Below, piece after piece: positions 4,693-11,497 of a DNA stretch of 64,000 bases. The stretch's first letter is position 1. Every line of letters begins with the position of its first letter. Position numbers and translations under genes: made by a program. The DNA lies in contig JADLCY010000001.1 of the NCBI GenBank assembly GCA_020846935.1, positions 310,001-374,000 of the forward strand. The letters run 5' to 3'. Below the pieces are notes generated by a model, which did not search any database, had not been told where the DNA came from, and worked only from the letters and a program-made list of their open reading frames with translations. Source of the stretch: Gemmatimonadaceae bacterium. GTDB lineage: Bacteria; Gemmatimonadota; Gemmatimonadetes; Gemmatimonadales; Gemmatimonadaceae.

Positions 4693-5280
4693 GTGACGAT
4701 CGTCTCCCTCCTCGACCGCGTCCTGCTGCTGCTGCGCCCGGCCCTGTTCTGGGCCGCGCTCGTCCTGGGCGTGCTCGCGCTCGTGGACTGGCTGGTTCGC
4801 ACCCGGCGCATCAACGCGTTCAGCCCGGTGGCCCGGGTCGCGCGAGACTATGTCGACCCGCTGTTCAAGCCGGTGGAGCGCACGATCACGCGCGCCGGTG
4901 GCAACCCGCAAACGGCGCCCTTCTGGGCGCTGGCGCTCGCGATACTGGGCGGGATCGTCCTGATTTCGCTGCTGGAGTTTGCCCGGGATCAGGTGCTGAT
5001 GGGCTTTGCCGCCGCGGGCAACGGGCCGCGCGGCCTCGTCATGCAACTGCTGCGATGGACGTTCCAGATTCTGCGGCTGGCGCTGATCGTGCGCGTCATT
5101 TCGTCGTGGATCCGCGTCTCGCCCTATTCGCCCTGGGTGCGGTGGTCATTCGCGCTCTCCGAGCCGATCATCGGGCCGCTACGCCGCGTCATTCCTCCGC
5201 TTGGCATGATCGACATCACGCCCATCGTCGCGTTCCTGCTCCTCGGTCTCCTCGAAGGTGTGGTGCTCGGCGCGCTCTGA
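4693..5280 (+). CDS. YggT-family integral membrane protein
   Basis: A 195-residue protein with four or five hydrophobic segments. The C-terminal half carries the YggT signature: a membrane helix, then VRVISSWIRVSPYSPWVRW, LSEPIIGPLRRVIPPLGMIDITPIVAFLLL. YggT proteins sit in the inner membrane and are linked to osmotic balance or septum/thylakoid organisation in different bacteria, without an agreed biochemical role. The N-terminal ~100 residues (two helices and a DPLFKPVERTITRAGG segment) look like a diverged duplicate of the same unit. The start is GTG, directly preceded by a GAGGG Shine-Dalgarno-like stretch. It lies 15 bases before the DUF167 gene, the usual YggT-YggU neighbour. Confidence 0.85.
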   Translation: MTIVSLLDRVLLLLRPALFWAALVLGVLALVDWLVRTRRINAFSPVARVARDYVDPLFKPVERTITRAGGNPQTAPFWALALAILGGIVLISLLEFARDQVLMGFAAAGNGPRGLVMQLLRWTFQILRLALIVRVISSWIRVSPYSPWVRWSFALSEPIIGPLRRVIPPLGMIDITPIVAFLLLGLLEGVVLGAL

Positions 5281-5295
5281 GGCGACAGCCTTGGG

Positions 5296-5661
5296 GTGGC
5301 CAGGCTCGAACGTTCGACCTTCGCGCCGCCTTCACCCCTTCCCTCGATCGACGGCGCAGTGACGTTTGTCATCACAGAGGTCGCGTGGGGCCTGAGGTTC
5401 ACGGTACTGGTGCAGCCCCGGGCGTCGCGCACGGAGCTATCCGGGGCCCATGGCGGCGCGCTCCGCCTGCGAGTGCAGGCGCCCCCGGTCGACGGCGCGG
5501 CCAACGACGCGGTGATTGCGTTCCTCGCGGAGACGCTGGGGATTCGCCGGCGCGACGTGCGCATCGTGGCCGGTGAGACCTCGCGCTCAAAGATCGTTGA
5601 TGTGGCTGGCGTGACACGCGCGGAGGTCGAGCAACTCGGTATGATCATCGGGCGCCGGTGA
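5296..5661 (+). CDS. DUF167 / YggU-family protein
   Basis: Up to 121 residues, with the whole small DUF167 fold visible: FTVLVQPRASRTELSG, LRLRVQAPPVDGAAND, IAFLAETLGI and IVAGETSRSKIVDV. This family is conserved and structurally known but has no defined function. Family members are usually ~95-100 residues, so the true start may be a downstream GTG such as the one at 5359 rather than GTG 5296. The first ~20 residues (Pro/Ser-rich) are not conserved. It follows yggT closely and is probably co-transcribed with it. Confidence 0.85.
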   Translation: MARLERSTFAPPSPLPSIDGAVTFVITEVAWGLRFTVLVQPRASRTELSGAHGGALRLRVQAPPVDGAANDAVIAFLAETLGIRRRDVRIVAGETSRSKIVDVAGVTRAEVEQLGMIIGRR

Positions 5662-5804
5662 TCACTGGCCGGATCGGTCGAATCGTCGCGACCGGGGCGC
5701 GCTGGCGGCGCCGGAGGTCGGGGCCGGGCGCGCGTCGGTTCTCACGGAGCGTTCCCGGTACTACCTTATGAGCCGAGCCTCCCGATGGGGGCTCGACAAC
5801 CTGA

Positions 5805-5856
5805 TACGTGGCGATTTAACGGCAACTTGCGGCCACGCTAAACAAACGCTAAAGCG
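5805..5856 (+). promoter_or_regulatory. SAM-II riboswitch (S-adenosylmethionine aptamer)
   Basis: The 5' leader of metH matches the SAM-II pattern known from alphaproteobacterial methionine genes. P1 is CGTGGC (5807-5812) pairing perfectly with GCCACG (5832-5837). The loop begins GATTTAAC (5813-5820) and ends in CTTGC (5826-5830). After P1 comes CTAAACAAACGCTAAAG (5838-5854), matching the conserved TAAACAA-GCTAAAG tail that folds back into the pseudoknot. SAM-II binds S-adenosylmethionine and lowers expression of biosynthetic genes. Both the position just before metH and the terminator that follows support the call. I have not drawn the P2 pairings base by base. Confidence 0.85.
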
Positions 5857-5859
5857 CCG

Positions 5860-5887
5860 GCCCGGCGCCTGAGCACCGGGCTTTTTT
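5860..5887 (+). terminator. intrinsic terminator of the SAM-II switch
   Basis: GCCCGG (5860-5865) pairs with CCGGGC (5876-5881) around a ten-base loop, and six T residues follow at 5882-5887. It starts a few bases after the aptamer tail and ends three bases before the metH ATG at 5891, so it can only act as a conditional terminator in the leader. The overlapping palindrome GCGCC/GGCGC (5854-5858 with 5864-5868) would compete with it and could be the read-through structure. Confidence 0.75.
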
Positions 5888-5890
5888 CAT

Positions 5891-8800
5891 ATGAGCCCGA
5901 TGAGTCCGACCGACATGTCGACGTTTCCTCGTCTCGATTCCCTGCCCCTGCGCTCCGCCTACCTCGACGCGCTCGCTCGAGGCGTGCTCGTCTACGACGG
6001 CGCCATGGGAACGAGCATTCAGCGCTTCCACCTCACGCCCGAGGACTTTGGAGGGGCGGCGCTGGAAGGTTGCAACGACCACCTCGTCCTGACGCGACCG
6101 GACGTGATCCAGCAGATCCACGAGTCGTTTCTCGCGGTCGGGTGCGACGTGGTCGAGACCTGCACCTTCCAGAGCACGCCGAGGCGGCTCGAGGAGTGGG
6201 GCATCGGCGAGAAGACCGAGGCGGTGAACGTGGCGGCGGCGCGCGTGGCCCGCGCGGCGTGCGATCGCTTTGCCACGCCGGAGCGCCCCCGCTTTGTTGC
6301 CGGCTCCATCGGTCCGACGGGTATGCTGCCATCGAGCAGCGACCCGGTGCTCTCCAGGGTCACGTTCGAGGAACTGGCCTGGAACTACGAGCAGCAGGCA
6401 CGGTCCCTGATTGCCGGCGGCGTGGACGTGCTGCTCGTGGAGACGTCGCAGGACATCCTCGAGGTGAAGGCGGCGATCGCGGGCTTTCGCCGGCTGTTCC
6501 ACGAGCTGGGGTTCCGCGTGCCCGTGCAGGCGCAGGTGACGCTGGACATCAGCGGCCGAATGCTGTTGGGCACCGACATCGCCAGTGCGATGACGACCCT
6601 CGAGGCGCTTCCGGTGGACGTGATCGGGCTCAACTGCTCGACGGGGCCGGAGCACATGCGCGAGCCGGTGCGGTACCTGTCGCAGCACGCGACTCGGTGG
6701 CTGTCGGTGATCCCGAACGCGGGGCTGCCGCTCAACACGGGGACGGGGGACGCGGTGTACCCGCTCGAACCGGCGCCGATGGCGGCGATGCTTGGCGAGT
6801 TCGTGCGCGACCTGGGCGTGCGCATCGTGGGTGGGTGTTGCGGCACGCAGCCCGAGCACCTGCGCGCGATCAATGAGGTGGTGGATGCGGCGGGCGTGCG
6901 GGCGTTCCCGTCTGGGCCGTCGCGGGAGGCCGGCGCATCGAACGCGGCGTCGCCGCGCGAGCGGGGGGCCCCCCCCGAAAGACACGATCGCGCCGCGGAA
7001 CCCGACGGACAAGCGCATCCTGTCCCCACCGCAACCGGAAAACCGCATACCATCGCCCGCGCGTCGTCCGCCATGCGGGCCATCACCCTCCACCAGGATC
7101 CGCCGCCCCTGCTCGTCGGCGAGCGCGTCAACTCGCAGGGCTCGCGCAAGGTCAAGCGCCTCCTGCTCGCGAACGACTACGAAGGCATCCTCGACGTCGC
7201 GCGCGAACAGGGAGAGTCCGGCGCCCACGTGCTCGACGTCTGCGTCGCCCTCACCGAGCGTGCGGACGAAGCCGAGCAGATGTCCGAAGTGGTGAAGCTG
7301 CTCTCCATGAGCGTGGAGCAGCCGCTCATGATCGACTCCACCGAAGCGCCCGTCATCAAGGCCGCGCTGGAACACGTGCCTGGGCGTGCGATCATCAACT
7401 CCATCAACATGGAGAATGGGCGCGCGCGCATCGACTCGGTCGTGCCGCTCGCCATCGAACACGGAGCCGCCCTCGTGGCCCTCACCATCGACCCGGTGGG
7501 CATGGCCCGCACCCGGGAGCGCAAGCTCGAGGTGGCGCGCGCGATCCACGAGATCGTCGTGAACGAATACGGCATGCAGCCGCACGACCTGATCTTCGAC
7601 GCGCTCACCTTCACGCTCGCCACCGGCGACGCCGAGTGGATCGACTCGGCCCGGGAGACCATCGAGGGGATCCGGCTCATCAAGCGCGAACTGCCGGGCG
7701 TCCTCACGATCCTCGGCGTGTCGAACGTCAGCTTTGGCCTCGCGCCGGAAACGCGGGCGGTGCTCAACTCGGTGTTCCTGCACCATTGCGTCCAGGCGGG
7801 ACTGGACGCGGCCATCGTGAACCCGGCGCACGTGACGCCGTACGCCGAGATCAGTACGGCCAACCGCGAGCTCGCAGACGATCTCGTGTTCAACCGGCGC
7901 CCCGACGCGCTCCAGCGCTTCATTGCCGCGTTCGAGTCCTCGGGGGCCACGCAGGCCTCCGCCGAGAGTGAGCGCGCCGACCCGACCGAGGGCATGACGC
8001 CCGACGCGCGCGTGCACTGGATGATCGTGCACCGCAAGAAGGAGGGCATCGAGGCCGCCCTCGACGCGGCCGGCGTGCGCGAACACCCCGTGCGCGTGCT
8101 CAACGACGTGCTGCTGCCGGCCATGAAGGAGGTGGGCGACAAGTTCGGTTCGGGCGAGCTCATTCTCCCGTTCGTGCTGCAGAGCGCCGAGGCGATGAAG
8201 AAGGCGGTGAAGCACCTGGAGCAGTTCCTGGAGAAGGCCGAGGGGTACACCAAGGGTCGCGTGGTGCTGGCCACCGTGTACGGCGACGTGCACGACATCG
8301 GCAAGTCGCTGGTGAACACCATCCTCTCCAACAACGGCTACACGGTGTTCGACCTGGGCAAGCAGGTGCCGGTGAACACGATCATCGAGAAGGCACTCGA
8401 GGTGAACGCCGACGCCATCGGCCTCTCGGCGCTCCTCGTGAGCACGTCGAAGCAGATGCCGCTGTGCGTGCAGGAGCTCGACCGCCGGAACATCGGGATC
8501 CCGGTGCTCATCGGCGGCGCGGCAATCAATCGGCGCTTCGGGCGGCGCGCGCTGTTCGTCGAGGGCGAGCGCGCGTACGACTCGGGCGTGTTCTACTGCA
8601 AGGATGCCTTCGAGGGGCTGGAGACGATGGATCGCCTCCAGGACGCCGAGCAGCGACCGGGCTTCGTGGCCAGGGCGCTCGAAGCCGCGCGCACCGATGT
8701 CTTTCTCCATCACAACGTCGGCAAGGACATGCGTGCCGGGGTCGAAGGCGGCCAGCGGAGCGACGTCTCGCGCACGCACGACGTTCCGCGCGCGCCGTTC

Positions 8801-9574
8801 TACGGGACCCGCGTGCTGCACGACATTCCGGTGGAGGAAGTGCTCGACCTGCTCGACCTCGATGAGCTGTTCCGCCTGCAGTGGGGCGCGCGCGGCTCGG
8901 GTGAGGCCTACGAGCGCACGGTGCGCGAGGAGTTCCGTCCGACGCTGGCCCGGCTGCGCGCCGAAGTGCTGGAGCAGCGCTGGCTGCAGCCGCGTGCCGT
9001 CTACGGGTTCTTCCCGGCCCGGAGCGACGGGAACGCCCTGGTGATCTACGATCCGGCGGCCTTCGAGGCCGACGGCGGTGCGCTCCGCGAGATCGGGCGC
9101 TTCACGTTCCCGCGCCAGGAAGGGCGTGAGCGGCTGTGCATCGCCGACTACTTCCGCGATCAGGAAGCGGACGAGCCGGATGTGGTCGCGCTGCAGGTGG
9201 TCACGGTTGGCTCCGCGGCCACCGAACACTTCGAGCGGCTGCAGGCCCAGGCCGAATACAGCGAAGCGTTCTACGCGCACGGCCTGTCGGTGGAAGCGGC
9301 CGAGGCGACGGCCGAATGGCTGCACCGTCGGATCCGGAAGGAGCTGTCGATCGAACCGACACGCGGCAAGCGGTACTCGTGGGGGTACGGCGCGTGCCCC
9401 GACCTCGACGACCACGCGCTGGTCTTTCGCCTGCTGCCGGTCGCCGAGTCGTTAGGCATGACGCTGACCGAGGCGTTCCAGCTGGTCCCGGAGCAGTCCA
9501 CGGCGGCCATCATCGTGCATCATCCGCAGTCGAAGTACTACGCGGTGCGTGGCGAGGGGGCGCGTGTCGAGTGA
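5891..9574 (+). CDS. metH: cobalamin-dependent methionine synthase MetH
   Basis: Transfers the methyl group of 5-methyltetrahydrofolate via cobalamin to homocysteine, making methionine in the cytoplasm. All four modules are present in 1227 residues. The homocysteine domain (~1-345) has DGAMGTSIQ and the zinc cysteines in GLNCSTG (~249) and GGCCGT (~314). The folate (pterin-binding) domain spans ~390-650. The B12 cap and Rossmann domains span ~690-930, with the cobalt-ligating His ~800 in GDVHDIG. The SAM-dependent activation domain spans ~960-1215 and includes RGKRYSWGYGACPDL. A low-complexity linker (~340-390, with a G6C8 run in the DNA) joins the first two modules without breaking frame. 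ATG 5891 has no clear ribosome site; ATG 5900 or 5915 could also be the start. Confidence 0.96.
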   Translation: MSPMSPTDMSTFPRLDSLPLRSAYLDALARGVLVYDGAMGTSIQRFHLTPEDFGGAALEGCNDHLVLTRPDVIQQIHESFLAVGCDVVETCTFQSTPRRLEEWGIGEKTEAVNVAAARVARAACDRFATPERPRFVAGSIGPTGMLPSSSDPVLSRVTFEELAWNYEQQARSLIAGGVDVLLVETSQDILEVKAAIAGFRRLFHELGFRVPVQAQVTLDISGRMLLGTDIASAMTTLEALPVDVIGLNCSTGPEHMREPVRYLSQHATRWLSVIPNAGLPLNTGTGDAVYPLEPAPMAAMLGEFVRDLGVRIVGGCCGTQPEHLRAINEVVDAAGVRAFPSGPSREAGASNAASPRERGAPPERHDRAAEPDGQAHPVPTATGKPHTIARASSAMRAITLHQDPPPLLVGERVNSQGSRKVKRLLLANDYEGILDVAREQGESGAHVLDVCVALTERADEAEQMSEVVKLLSMSVEQPLMIDSTEAPVIKAALEHVPGRAIINSINMENGRARIDSVVPLAIEHGAALVALTIDPVGMARTRERKLEVARAIHEIVVNEYGMQPHDLIFDALTFTLATGDAEWIDSARETIEGIRLIKRELPGVLTILGVSNVSFGLAPETRAVLNSVFLHHCVQAGLDAAIVNPAHVTPYAEISTANRELADDLVFNRRPDALQRFIAAFESSGATQASAESERADPTEGMTPDARVHWMIVHRKKEGIEAALDAAGVREHPVRVLNDVLLPAMKEVGDKFGSGELILPFVLQSAEAMKKAVKHLEQFLEKAEGYTKGRVVLATVYGDVHDIGKSLVNTILSNNGYTVFDLGKQVPVNTIIEKALEVNADAIGLSALLVSTSKQMPLCVQELDRRNIGIPVLIGGAAINRRFGRRALFVEGERAYDSGVFYCKDAFEGLETMDRLQDAEQRPGFVARALEAARTDVFLHHNVGKDMRAGVEGGQRSDVSRTHDVPRAPFYGTRVLHDIPVEEVLDLLDLDELFRLQWGARGSGEAYERTVREEFRPTLARLRAEVLEQRWLQPRAVYGFFPARSDGNALVIYDPAAFEADGGALREIGRFTFPRQEGRERLCIADYFRDQEADEPDVVALQVVTVGSAATEHFERLQAQAEYSEAFYAHGLSVEAAEATAEWLHRRIRKELSIEPTRGKRYSWGYGACPDLDDHALVFRLLPVAESLGMTLTEAFQLVPEQSTAAIIVHHPQSKYYAVRGEGARVE

Positions 9575-9619: not shown

Positions 9620-11497
9620 ATGGCCAAGGACGACCTGCTCCGCCGTCTGCGCGATCCCGATGCCGTCGTGGTTTTTGACGGCGCGATGGGGACCATGCTG
9701 TACGCGCGCGGCGTGTTCATCAATCAGTGCTACGACGAACTCAACCTCCGCGCGCCGGACCTGGTGCGCGAGGTGCATGCGGCGTACGTGGCCGCGGGCG
9801 CCGAGGCGGTGGAGACGAACTCCTTTGGCGCCAATCGCGTGAAGCTCACGCCCTTTGGGCTGCAGGACGACATCGCCGCGATCAACCGGGCCGCGGCGCG
9901 CGTGGCCAGGGAGGCGGCCGGGCCTGACCGCCTGGTCGCGGGCGCGGTAGGCCCGCTCGGTCTTCGCGTCGAGCCCTACGGCTCGACGTCGCTCGCCGAG
10001 GCGCAGACCCATTTTGCCGAGCAGATGGAGGCGCTGCTCGACGGGGGCGTGGACTGCTTCATCCTGGAGACCTTCGGGGACCTCGACGAGATCGCGCAGG
10101 CGATCGTGGCGGCGCGCCGCGTGAGCCCGACCACGCCGGTGATCGCGCAGGTCACGATCGGCATGGACGGGGTCACGCCGTATGGCGCCACGCCCGAGGA
10201 CGCGGCAAGGCGGCTGGACGCACTGGGCGCGGACGTGGTCGGGCTCAACTGCTCGGTCGGGCCGCAGATCATCCTCGAAGCCATCGAAAAGATGGCGACG
10301 GCGACGACGAAGAAGCTGAGTGCGATGCCTAACGCGGGCATGCCCCGTGAAGTCGGCGGCCGGCACATGTACATGGCGAGCCCCGAATACATGGCCACGT
10401 ACGCCCGACACCTGGTGCAGGCCGGTGCCAAGGTGATCGGCGGGTGCTGCGGCACCACCCCCGATCACGTGAAGGCGATGATCGAAGGCATCCGCCCGCT
10501 GGTCCCGCGGCTCGGTCCGGCGGTGCGCGGCCCGCAGAGCGGGATGTCGGTGCGTGTCACGGCATCGGTGGCGCCGAGGCCCACCGGGACCGAGCCCGTG
10601 CCGCTGGCGCAGCGGTCGCGGTTTGGCGCCAAACTCGCCAGCCAGACGTTCGTGACGTCGGTGGAGATCGTGCCACCGCGCGGCGTCGACGCGAGCCGCA
10701 TGCTCACCGATGTCGCGAAGCTCAAGGTGGCCGGCGTGGACGCCGTCAACGTGCCGGACGGACCGCGCGCGCAGAGCCGCATGGGGGCCATGCTCTGCTC
10801 CGTGCTGATCGAGCAGCAGGTCGGCATCGAGACGGTGTGTCACTATGCCTGCCGGGACCGCAACCTGCTCGGCATGCTGAGCGACCTGCTTGGCGGCGCG
10901 GCCATCGGCCTGCGCAACATCCTGCTGATCACGGGAGACCCGCCCAAGATGGGGCCCTATCCCGACGCGACCGCCGTGTTCGACATCGACGCCATCGGGC
11001 TGACGAACCTGGTGCGGAACCTCAACCACGGCCTCGACCCCGGTGACAACCCGATCGGGCCGCCAACGCGATACGTGATCGGCGTGGGCGCGAATCCGGC
11101 CGCCGTCGACCCCGCCCTCGAACAGCGGCGTTTTGCCTACAAGGTCGATGCAGGGGCGGAGTACGCCATCACGCAGCCCGTGTTCGACGTACGGCAGCTC
11201 GAGCGCTTTCTGGGTGAGGTGGAGTCGCACCGGATTCCGATCGTGGCCGGGATCTGGCCATTGGTCTCGGTGCGCAACGCCGAGTTCCTTGCCAACGAGG
11301 TACCCGGCGTTGTCGTGCCGAAGGAGATCATCGACCGGATGCGGCGCGCCAACGAGCGCTCGAAGGAGCATGCCGTGGAAGAAGGCATCGCGATTGCCCG
11401 CGAGATGTTCGCCCAGGTTCGGCCCTCGATGCAGGGGGTCCAGGTTTCGGCGCCCCTCGGGAAGGTGGAACTCGCGCTTCGCGTCTTCGAAACGTGA
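9620..11497 (+). CDS. homocysteine S-methyltransferase / methylenetetrahydrofolate reductase fusion
   Basis: A 625-residue bifunctional protein of the YitJ type. Residues ~1-300 are a Zn-dependent homocysteine methyltransferase domain, with VVFDGAMGTMLYARG and zinc cysteines in GLNCSVG (~210) and GGCCGT (~273). Residues ~335-625 are an FAD-containing methylenetetrahydrofolate reductase, with SVEIVPPRG, VNVPDGPRAQSRMG and LLITGDPPKMG. The reductase half would supply the 5-methyltetrahydrofolate used by MetH. The gene begins 45 bases after metH with GAGGTGAGG in front of the ATG, so it is most likely the second gene of the SAM-II-controlled transcript. Confidence 0.93.
   Translation: MAKDDLLRRLRDPDAVVVFDGAMGTMLYARGVFINQCYDELNLRAPDLVREVHAAYVAAGAEAVETNSFGANRVKLTPFGLQDDIAAINRAAARVAREAAGPDRLVAGAVGPLGLRVEPYGSTSLAEAQTHFAEQMEALLDGGVDCFILETFGDLDEIAQAIVAARRVSPTTPVIAQVTIGMDGVTPYGATPEDAARRLDALGADVVGLNCSVGPQIILEAIEKMATATTKKLSAMPNAGMPREVGGRHMYMASPEYMATYARHLVQAGAKVIGGCCGTTPDHVKAMIEGIRPLVPRLGPAVRGPQSGMSVRVTASVAPRPTGTEPVPLAQRSRFGAKLASQTFVTSVEIVPPRGVDASRMLTDVAKLKVAGVDAVNVPDGPRAQSRMGAMLCSVLIEQQVGIETVCHYACRDRNLLGMLSDLLGGAAIGLRNILLITGDPPKMGPYPDATAVFDIDAIGLTNLVRNLNHGLDPGDNPIGPPTRYVIGVGANPAAVDPALEQRRFAYKVDAGAEYAITQPVFDVRQLERFLGEVESHRIPIVAGIWPLVSVRNAEFLANEVPGVVVPKEIIDRMRRANERSKEHAVEEGIAIAREMFAQVRPSMQGVQVSAPLGKVELALRVFET

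Follow-up and report, generated by a model that had tools for sequence, protein, structure and literature searches.

Introduction

The SAM-II riboswitch (also metA motif or SAM_alpha; RF00521), as described from Agrobacterium tumefaciens and further alphaproteobacteria, combines a P1 helix with a P2 pseudoknot and a conserved core, and a methionine-pathway gene lies downstream. Outside the alphaproteobacteria it turned up occasionally, in other Proteobacteria and in the Bacteroides group; terminators follow many of the copies (PMC1273637), and its distribution has been given as no more than three taxonomic groups (PMC3766115). An intrinsic terminator after the aptamer is the usual arrangement, as noted in 2005 and 2007 (PMC1273637, PMC2258182), and the targets listed in a regulon survey are metY, metA, metX, metC, hom and metW (PMC4239095). 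Expression control by SAM-II has been studied experimentally for metA and metZ of Sinorhizobium meliloti; the metZ element is predicted to form an intrinsic terminator upon SAM binding, and its leader gives a small RNA of about 100 nt (PMC9373788). A variant of the same aptamer with a longer loop, SAM-II long loops (RF01726), comes from Bacteroidetes and marine samples (PMC2864571).

Here we analyze a SAM-II element upstream of metH in a 64-kb stretch of DNA (the window) from a member of the Gemmatimonadota. It is of the ordinary form and not the long-loop one, and it shares with its alphaproteobacterial counterparts P1, the P2 pseudoknot, the conserved core, a methionine-pathway gene downstream and, with many of them, a terminator between P2 and the gene (PMC1273637, PMC2258182). 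It differs from them in host phylum and in having metH as its target. The S. meliloti metZ element is similar in its predicted terminator, but belongs to another gene and another phylum. Surveys of SAM-II in the open literature mention neither a Gemmatimonadota host nor a metH target, and a search of the open literature for SAM-II or any SAM riboswitch in Gemmatimonadetes, Gemmatimonas or Gemmatimonadota found nothing relevant. A preliminary description of this locus had noted a complete expression platform on metH and had claimed that the finding extends both the host range and the targets of SAM-II. Measured against the open literature, where the hosts are Proteobacteria and Bacteroidetes and the targets are the six genes above, host and target are indeed new. 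The arrangement is, however, phylum-wide rather than an isolated case, and the terminator, although present, is not a novelty. With these hosts, SAM-II, so far a mainly proteobacterial riboswitch, becomes a widespread element of methionine feedback in another, little-studied phylum.

A SAM-II aptamer in the metH leader

Scanning the whole window with cmscan gave a match to RF00521 on the plus strand (37.9 bits, E 5.6e-5; genome-wide E 9e-7) that covered the full model (positions 1-79), and no second Rfam match at gathering level. The margin above the gathering score of 36 bits is 1.9 bits. Relatives carry this element before metH as well, with scores of up to 48.9 bits, so the identity of the aptamer stands on more than this narrow score. 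Its parts, read from the sequence, are the following.

5798-5872, plus strand: SAM-II (SAM_alpha, RF00521) aptamer, Rfam model extent from cmscan
5807-5812, plus strand: P1 5' strand CGTGGC, invariant across 18 aligned metH leaders
5813-5820, plus strand: conserved loop GATTTAAC, with GATTT invariant
5821-5830, plus strand: P2 pseudoknot 5' strand, GGC at 5821-5823 and CTTGC at 5826-5830 (also from pair counts)
5832-5837, plus strand: P1 3' strand GCCACG, invariant across the same 18 leaders
5839-5845, plus strand: core motif TAAACAA
5848-5854, plus strand: core motif GCTAAAG
5848-5858, plus strand: P2 pseudoknot 3' strand GCTAAAGCGCC, whose GCGCC end doubles as the 5' arm of a proposed antiterminator

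In the alignment of 18 metH leaders, pairing is held in 100% of cells for P1 and in 96.5% for P2, in which the pair 5821:5858 changes from G-C to A-U. The SAM-II core residues GATTT, TTGC, TAAA and GCTAA are all present. Genes of the methionine/SAM pathway lie downstream, metH in this case and hom and a PAPS-reductase gene for the other copies in the genome. By family membership, 5798-5872 is a SAM-II aptamer; P1 and every motif quoted in the preliminary description were recovered, and the Rfam model that it had named as a check scored the element above the cutoff. Family and invariant core together suggest that the metH-leader aptamer binds SAM. Immediately 5' of the aptamer, the window also carries a strong hairpin, CGAGCCTCCCGATGGGGGCTCG (5775-5796), which is absent from related leaders.

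metH, its operon and the host

Two genes of methionine synthesis follow the aptamer.

5891-9574, plus strand: metH, encoding a cobalamin-dependent methionine synthase of 1227 aa if counted from the first ATG (Pfam domains S-methyl_trans, Pterin_bind, B12-binding_2, B12-binding and Met_synt_B12)
9620-11497, plus strand: homocysteine S-methyltransferase/methylenetetrahydrofolate reductase (MTHFR) fusion (Pfam S-methyl_trans, MTHFR)

The downstream gene had been called metH, and its Pfam domains make up a complete cobalamin-dependent MetH. The host had been taken for a member of the Gemmatimonadota, and the closest named MetH relatives come from Gemmatimonadetes or Gemmatimonadaceae MAGs (82 to 70% identity). 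ATG 5891 is the first possible metH start, with in-frame ATGs also at 5900 and 5915, and the MetH proteins of relatives start nearer to a conserved SAYLDAL motif. The description of a terminator ending three bases before the metH ATG holds for ATG 5891, itself a candidate start. Judging from spacing (about 45 nt) and strand, the fusion gene is the probable second gene of a metH operon. A profile search of the genome gave one Met_synt_B12 match, and genome searches for the MetE C-terminal domain (PF01717) and for the SAM-I riboswitch (RF00162) gave none. As the genome has a single MetH and matches to neither MetE nor SAM-I, metH is a gene on which feedback by SAM would make sense. The element would place the final step of methionine synthesis under SAM-II, with MetH the only full methionine synthase found in the genome.

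This genome carries three SAM-II copies; the genes behind them, metH, hom and one for PAPS reductase, all belong to sulfur or methionine metabolism. The two copies outside the metH leader are these.

G000:C10:28906-28979, minus strand: SAM-II copy L134/L238, before the PAPS-reductase gene, 39 bits
G000:C1:191202-191276: SAM-II copy L135/L239, before homoserine dehydrogenase (hom), 35.2 bits, slightly below the cutoff

The PAPS-reductase copy would tie SAM to sulfate reduction and to the supply of sirohaem. Downstream of that reductase lie GlutR_N, porphobilinogen deaminase with CbiX, and HemD with tetrapyrrole methylase, a set of haem/sirohaem type. The hom copy has a terminator-like hairpin of its own, and after hom come genes for a PALP enzyme and for ThiF/rhodanese.

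A terminator crossed by an alternative hairpin

Between the aptamer and metH we located a terminator and, overlapping it, a proposed antiterminator.

5860-5887, plus strand: intrinsic terminator, stem GCCCGG 5860-5865 with CCGGGC 5876-5881, then TTTTTT 5882-5887 (pattern scan, folding)
5854-5868, plus strand: proposed antiterminator GCGCCG-GCC-CGGCGC, in which 5854-5859 pairs with 5863-5868 and which GCT 5848-5850 and AGC 5872-5874 could extend (folding, comparison)

The GC hairpin with six T residues that had been reported here is borne out, its segment folding at -16.1 kcal/mol (z -3.2 against shuffles). A terminator pattern scan of 5600-6000 found one site, in the same place, against 0.2 expected in shuffles. 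A sigma-70 pattern scan over the same interval found no promoter; a weak promoter-like TTCTCA-17-TACCTT can be seen by eye at 5739-5767, and we do not claim it as one.

The two hairpins have crossing geometry. When the growing chain was folded, the alternative hairpin was the minimum free energy structure for chain ends between 5868 and about 5878; the terminator entered that structure from about 5880. Among 26 unique metH leaders we found a recurrent plan, GCTAAAGCGCY (the P2 3' strand), GCCC, RGCGC, a loop, GGGC and T, and nearly all of them have both a terminator and a crossing hairpin that starts from the P2 3' strand. In the aligned metH leaders, pairing is held in 96% of cells for P1, P2 and terminator and in 92% for the alternative hairpin; with the partner slid by one to three columns as a control, these values are at most 45% and 42%. 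The Y at 5858 could pair either with 5821, forming part of P2, or with 5864, forming part of the alternative hairpin. At positions 5821/5858/5864, the 18 aligned leaders read G/C/G in 10, A/U/A in 3 and A/U/G in 1, and one pair is broken in 4. Because the A/U variants probably belong to a single clade, the independent changes at 5858 are few. One leader, L170, differs in both arms: where the window has GCGCC (5854-5858) and GGCGC (5864-5868), it carries CCGCC and GGCGG.

Stability of the antiterminator was also considered as proof and was dropped for the metH set, in which it shows no excess over dinucleotide shuffles: 7 of 100 GC-rich shuffled sets reach the value observed for the Gemmatimonadaceae metH set, and 14% of shuffles reach the stability of the window leader by itself. 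More distant Gemmatimonadota (L102, L063, L139) have a longer platform, GCTAAAACGC...GCGTTTTAGC or near it, that at most 2% of shuffles reach; the long form of L102 was matched by none of 50. The phylum supplies dozens of natural variants of such strand-exchange platforms, which makes the SAM-II termination mechanism, so far predicted in the open literature, directly testable.

Proposed control of metH

From comparison and folding, we propose that the SAM-II riboswitch very probably shuts off the metH operon by premature transcription termination at high SAM, an off-with-SAM direction of control that we infer. SAM binding would stabilize P1 and the P2 pseudoknot, so that P2 would hold 5848-5858. 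GCCCGG 5860-5865 would then be free for CCGGGC 5876-5881, polymerase would halt at the T run, and metH would be off. When SAM is absent, GCGCCG 5854-5859 would pair with CGGCGC 5863-5868, using half of the terminator 5' arm, so that the terminator would be blocked and transcription would continue into metH. Transcriptional off-switches are usually built in this way, with a ligand-held strand withdrawn from an antiterminator so that a terminator can form.

In folding of the full-length RNA without ligand, the terminator is preferred to the alternative (-24.9 versus -19.5 kcal/mol, with P1 in both). As the terminator is the better equilibrium fold with or without ligand, the switch would have to be kinetic, or termination could be constitutive in part. 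P1/L1 may also pair with the P2 3' strand when SAM is absent, and in that fold the terminator would stay available. The preference for the terminator would also suit a hairpin that is a constitutive or weakly regulated terminator, with control exerted mainly via RNA stability or a leader-derived small RNA. A possible precedent is the S. meliloti metA terminator after SAM-II, which is not predicted to be SAM-responsive and whose leader yields abundant sRNAs (PMC9373788). That terminator, however, sits further down, past the ribosome site, whereas the one before metH begins two bases past P2 and is crossed by an alternative hairpin, itself conserved, that uses the P2 strand. Moreover, position 5858 varies jointly with both of its partners. 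We consider a constitutive or weakly regulated terminator unlikely.

Translational control, in which SAM-bound P2 or the terminator hairpin would mask the metH start region, has a slim chance of applying here. It would accord with the first metH ATG lying 3 nt behind the T run and with Gemmatimonadota of the L043 kind, in which the start codon comes after P2 and there is no terminator. In the metH leader, however, six T residues behind a GC stem suit termination, the T run persists in relatives even though its spacing to the start codon varies, and the P2 strand was read as containing no Shine-Dalgarno sequence.

Distribution and targets in Gemmatimonadota

SAM-II matches were obtained in 202 of 298 sampled Gemmatimonadota genomes (above the cutoff in 174) and in none of 14 well-known control genomes. 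The aptamer lies 29-132 nt upstream of the MetH protein match in all 17 close named Gemmatimonadota loci; among 63 more distant MetH loci, mostly from Chloroflexota and similar, it occurs in two, both of them Gemmatimonadota records. That the window element is a degenerate or chance SAM_alpha match without function, as its score near the gathering cutoff might suggest, is hardly credible given its recurrence before metH in those 17 relatives, most of them with higher scores, its invariant core and the empty control genomes. The metH-leader SAM-II is a phylum-wide arrangement and metH a usual target there.

For a tally of targets, 112 unique loci were collected. A gene matching MetH, nearly always via its homocysteine-methyltransferase domain, lies downstream in 58 of the 112; the group of targets about 35% identical to MetH is an incompletely separated mix of MetH-like proteins and homocysteine-methyltransferase/MTHFR fusions. 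The commonest SAM-II target in the phylum is accordingly metH or related homocysteine-methyltransferase genes. Smaller groups, each named from at least one representative, are MTHFR (12), Cys/Met PLP enzymes (9) and PLP-dependent PALP enzymes (6), with four each for homoserine dehydrogenase, alpha/beta hydrolases (possibly of metX type) and ketopantoate hydroxymethyltransferase. We give even chances to a broader view, that Gemmatimonadota rely on SAM-II as their main SAM feedback device and have a phylum-typical platform whose antiterminator strand is the ligand-gated pseudoknot strand itself. In this view methionine synthase (metH, homocysteine-methyltransferase/MTHFR, metF) would be at the centre of the target set, which would extend to sulfate reduction and, in some, to ketopantoate synthesis (panB).

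The panB-type gene (ketopantoate hydroxymethyltransferase) was an unexpected target, found behind SAM-II in four Gemmatimonadota genomes of different genera (L236, L237, L056, L034); the panB-type enzyme draws on methylene-tetrahydrofolate. At five other loci (L043, L039, L040, L037, L059) a likely start codon comes directly after SAM-II (e.g. GCTAAAACGCCAGGATG) with no terminator, and the gene is a homocysteine methyltransferase, in L043 an MTHFR fusion. With the start codon right after P2 and no terminator, translational control is probable at those loci. In a distant Gemmatimonadota record (L176, 1339-1404), the long-loop variant RF01726 is found upstream of metH. Finally, L235 carries two back-to-back SAM-II aptamers on opposite strands (near 4750-4788 on the minus strand and 5025 on the plus strand), about 240 nt apart and serving divergent genes.
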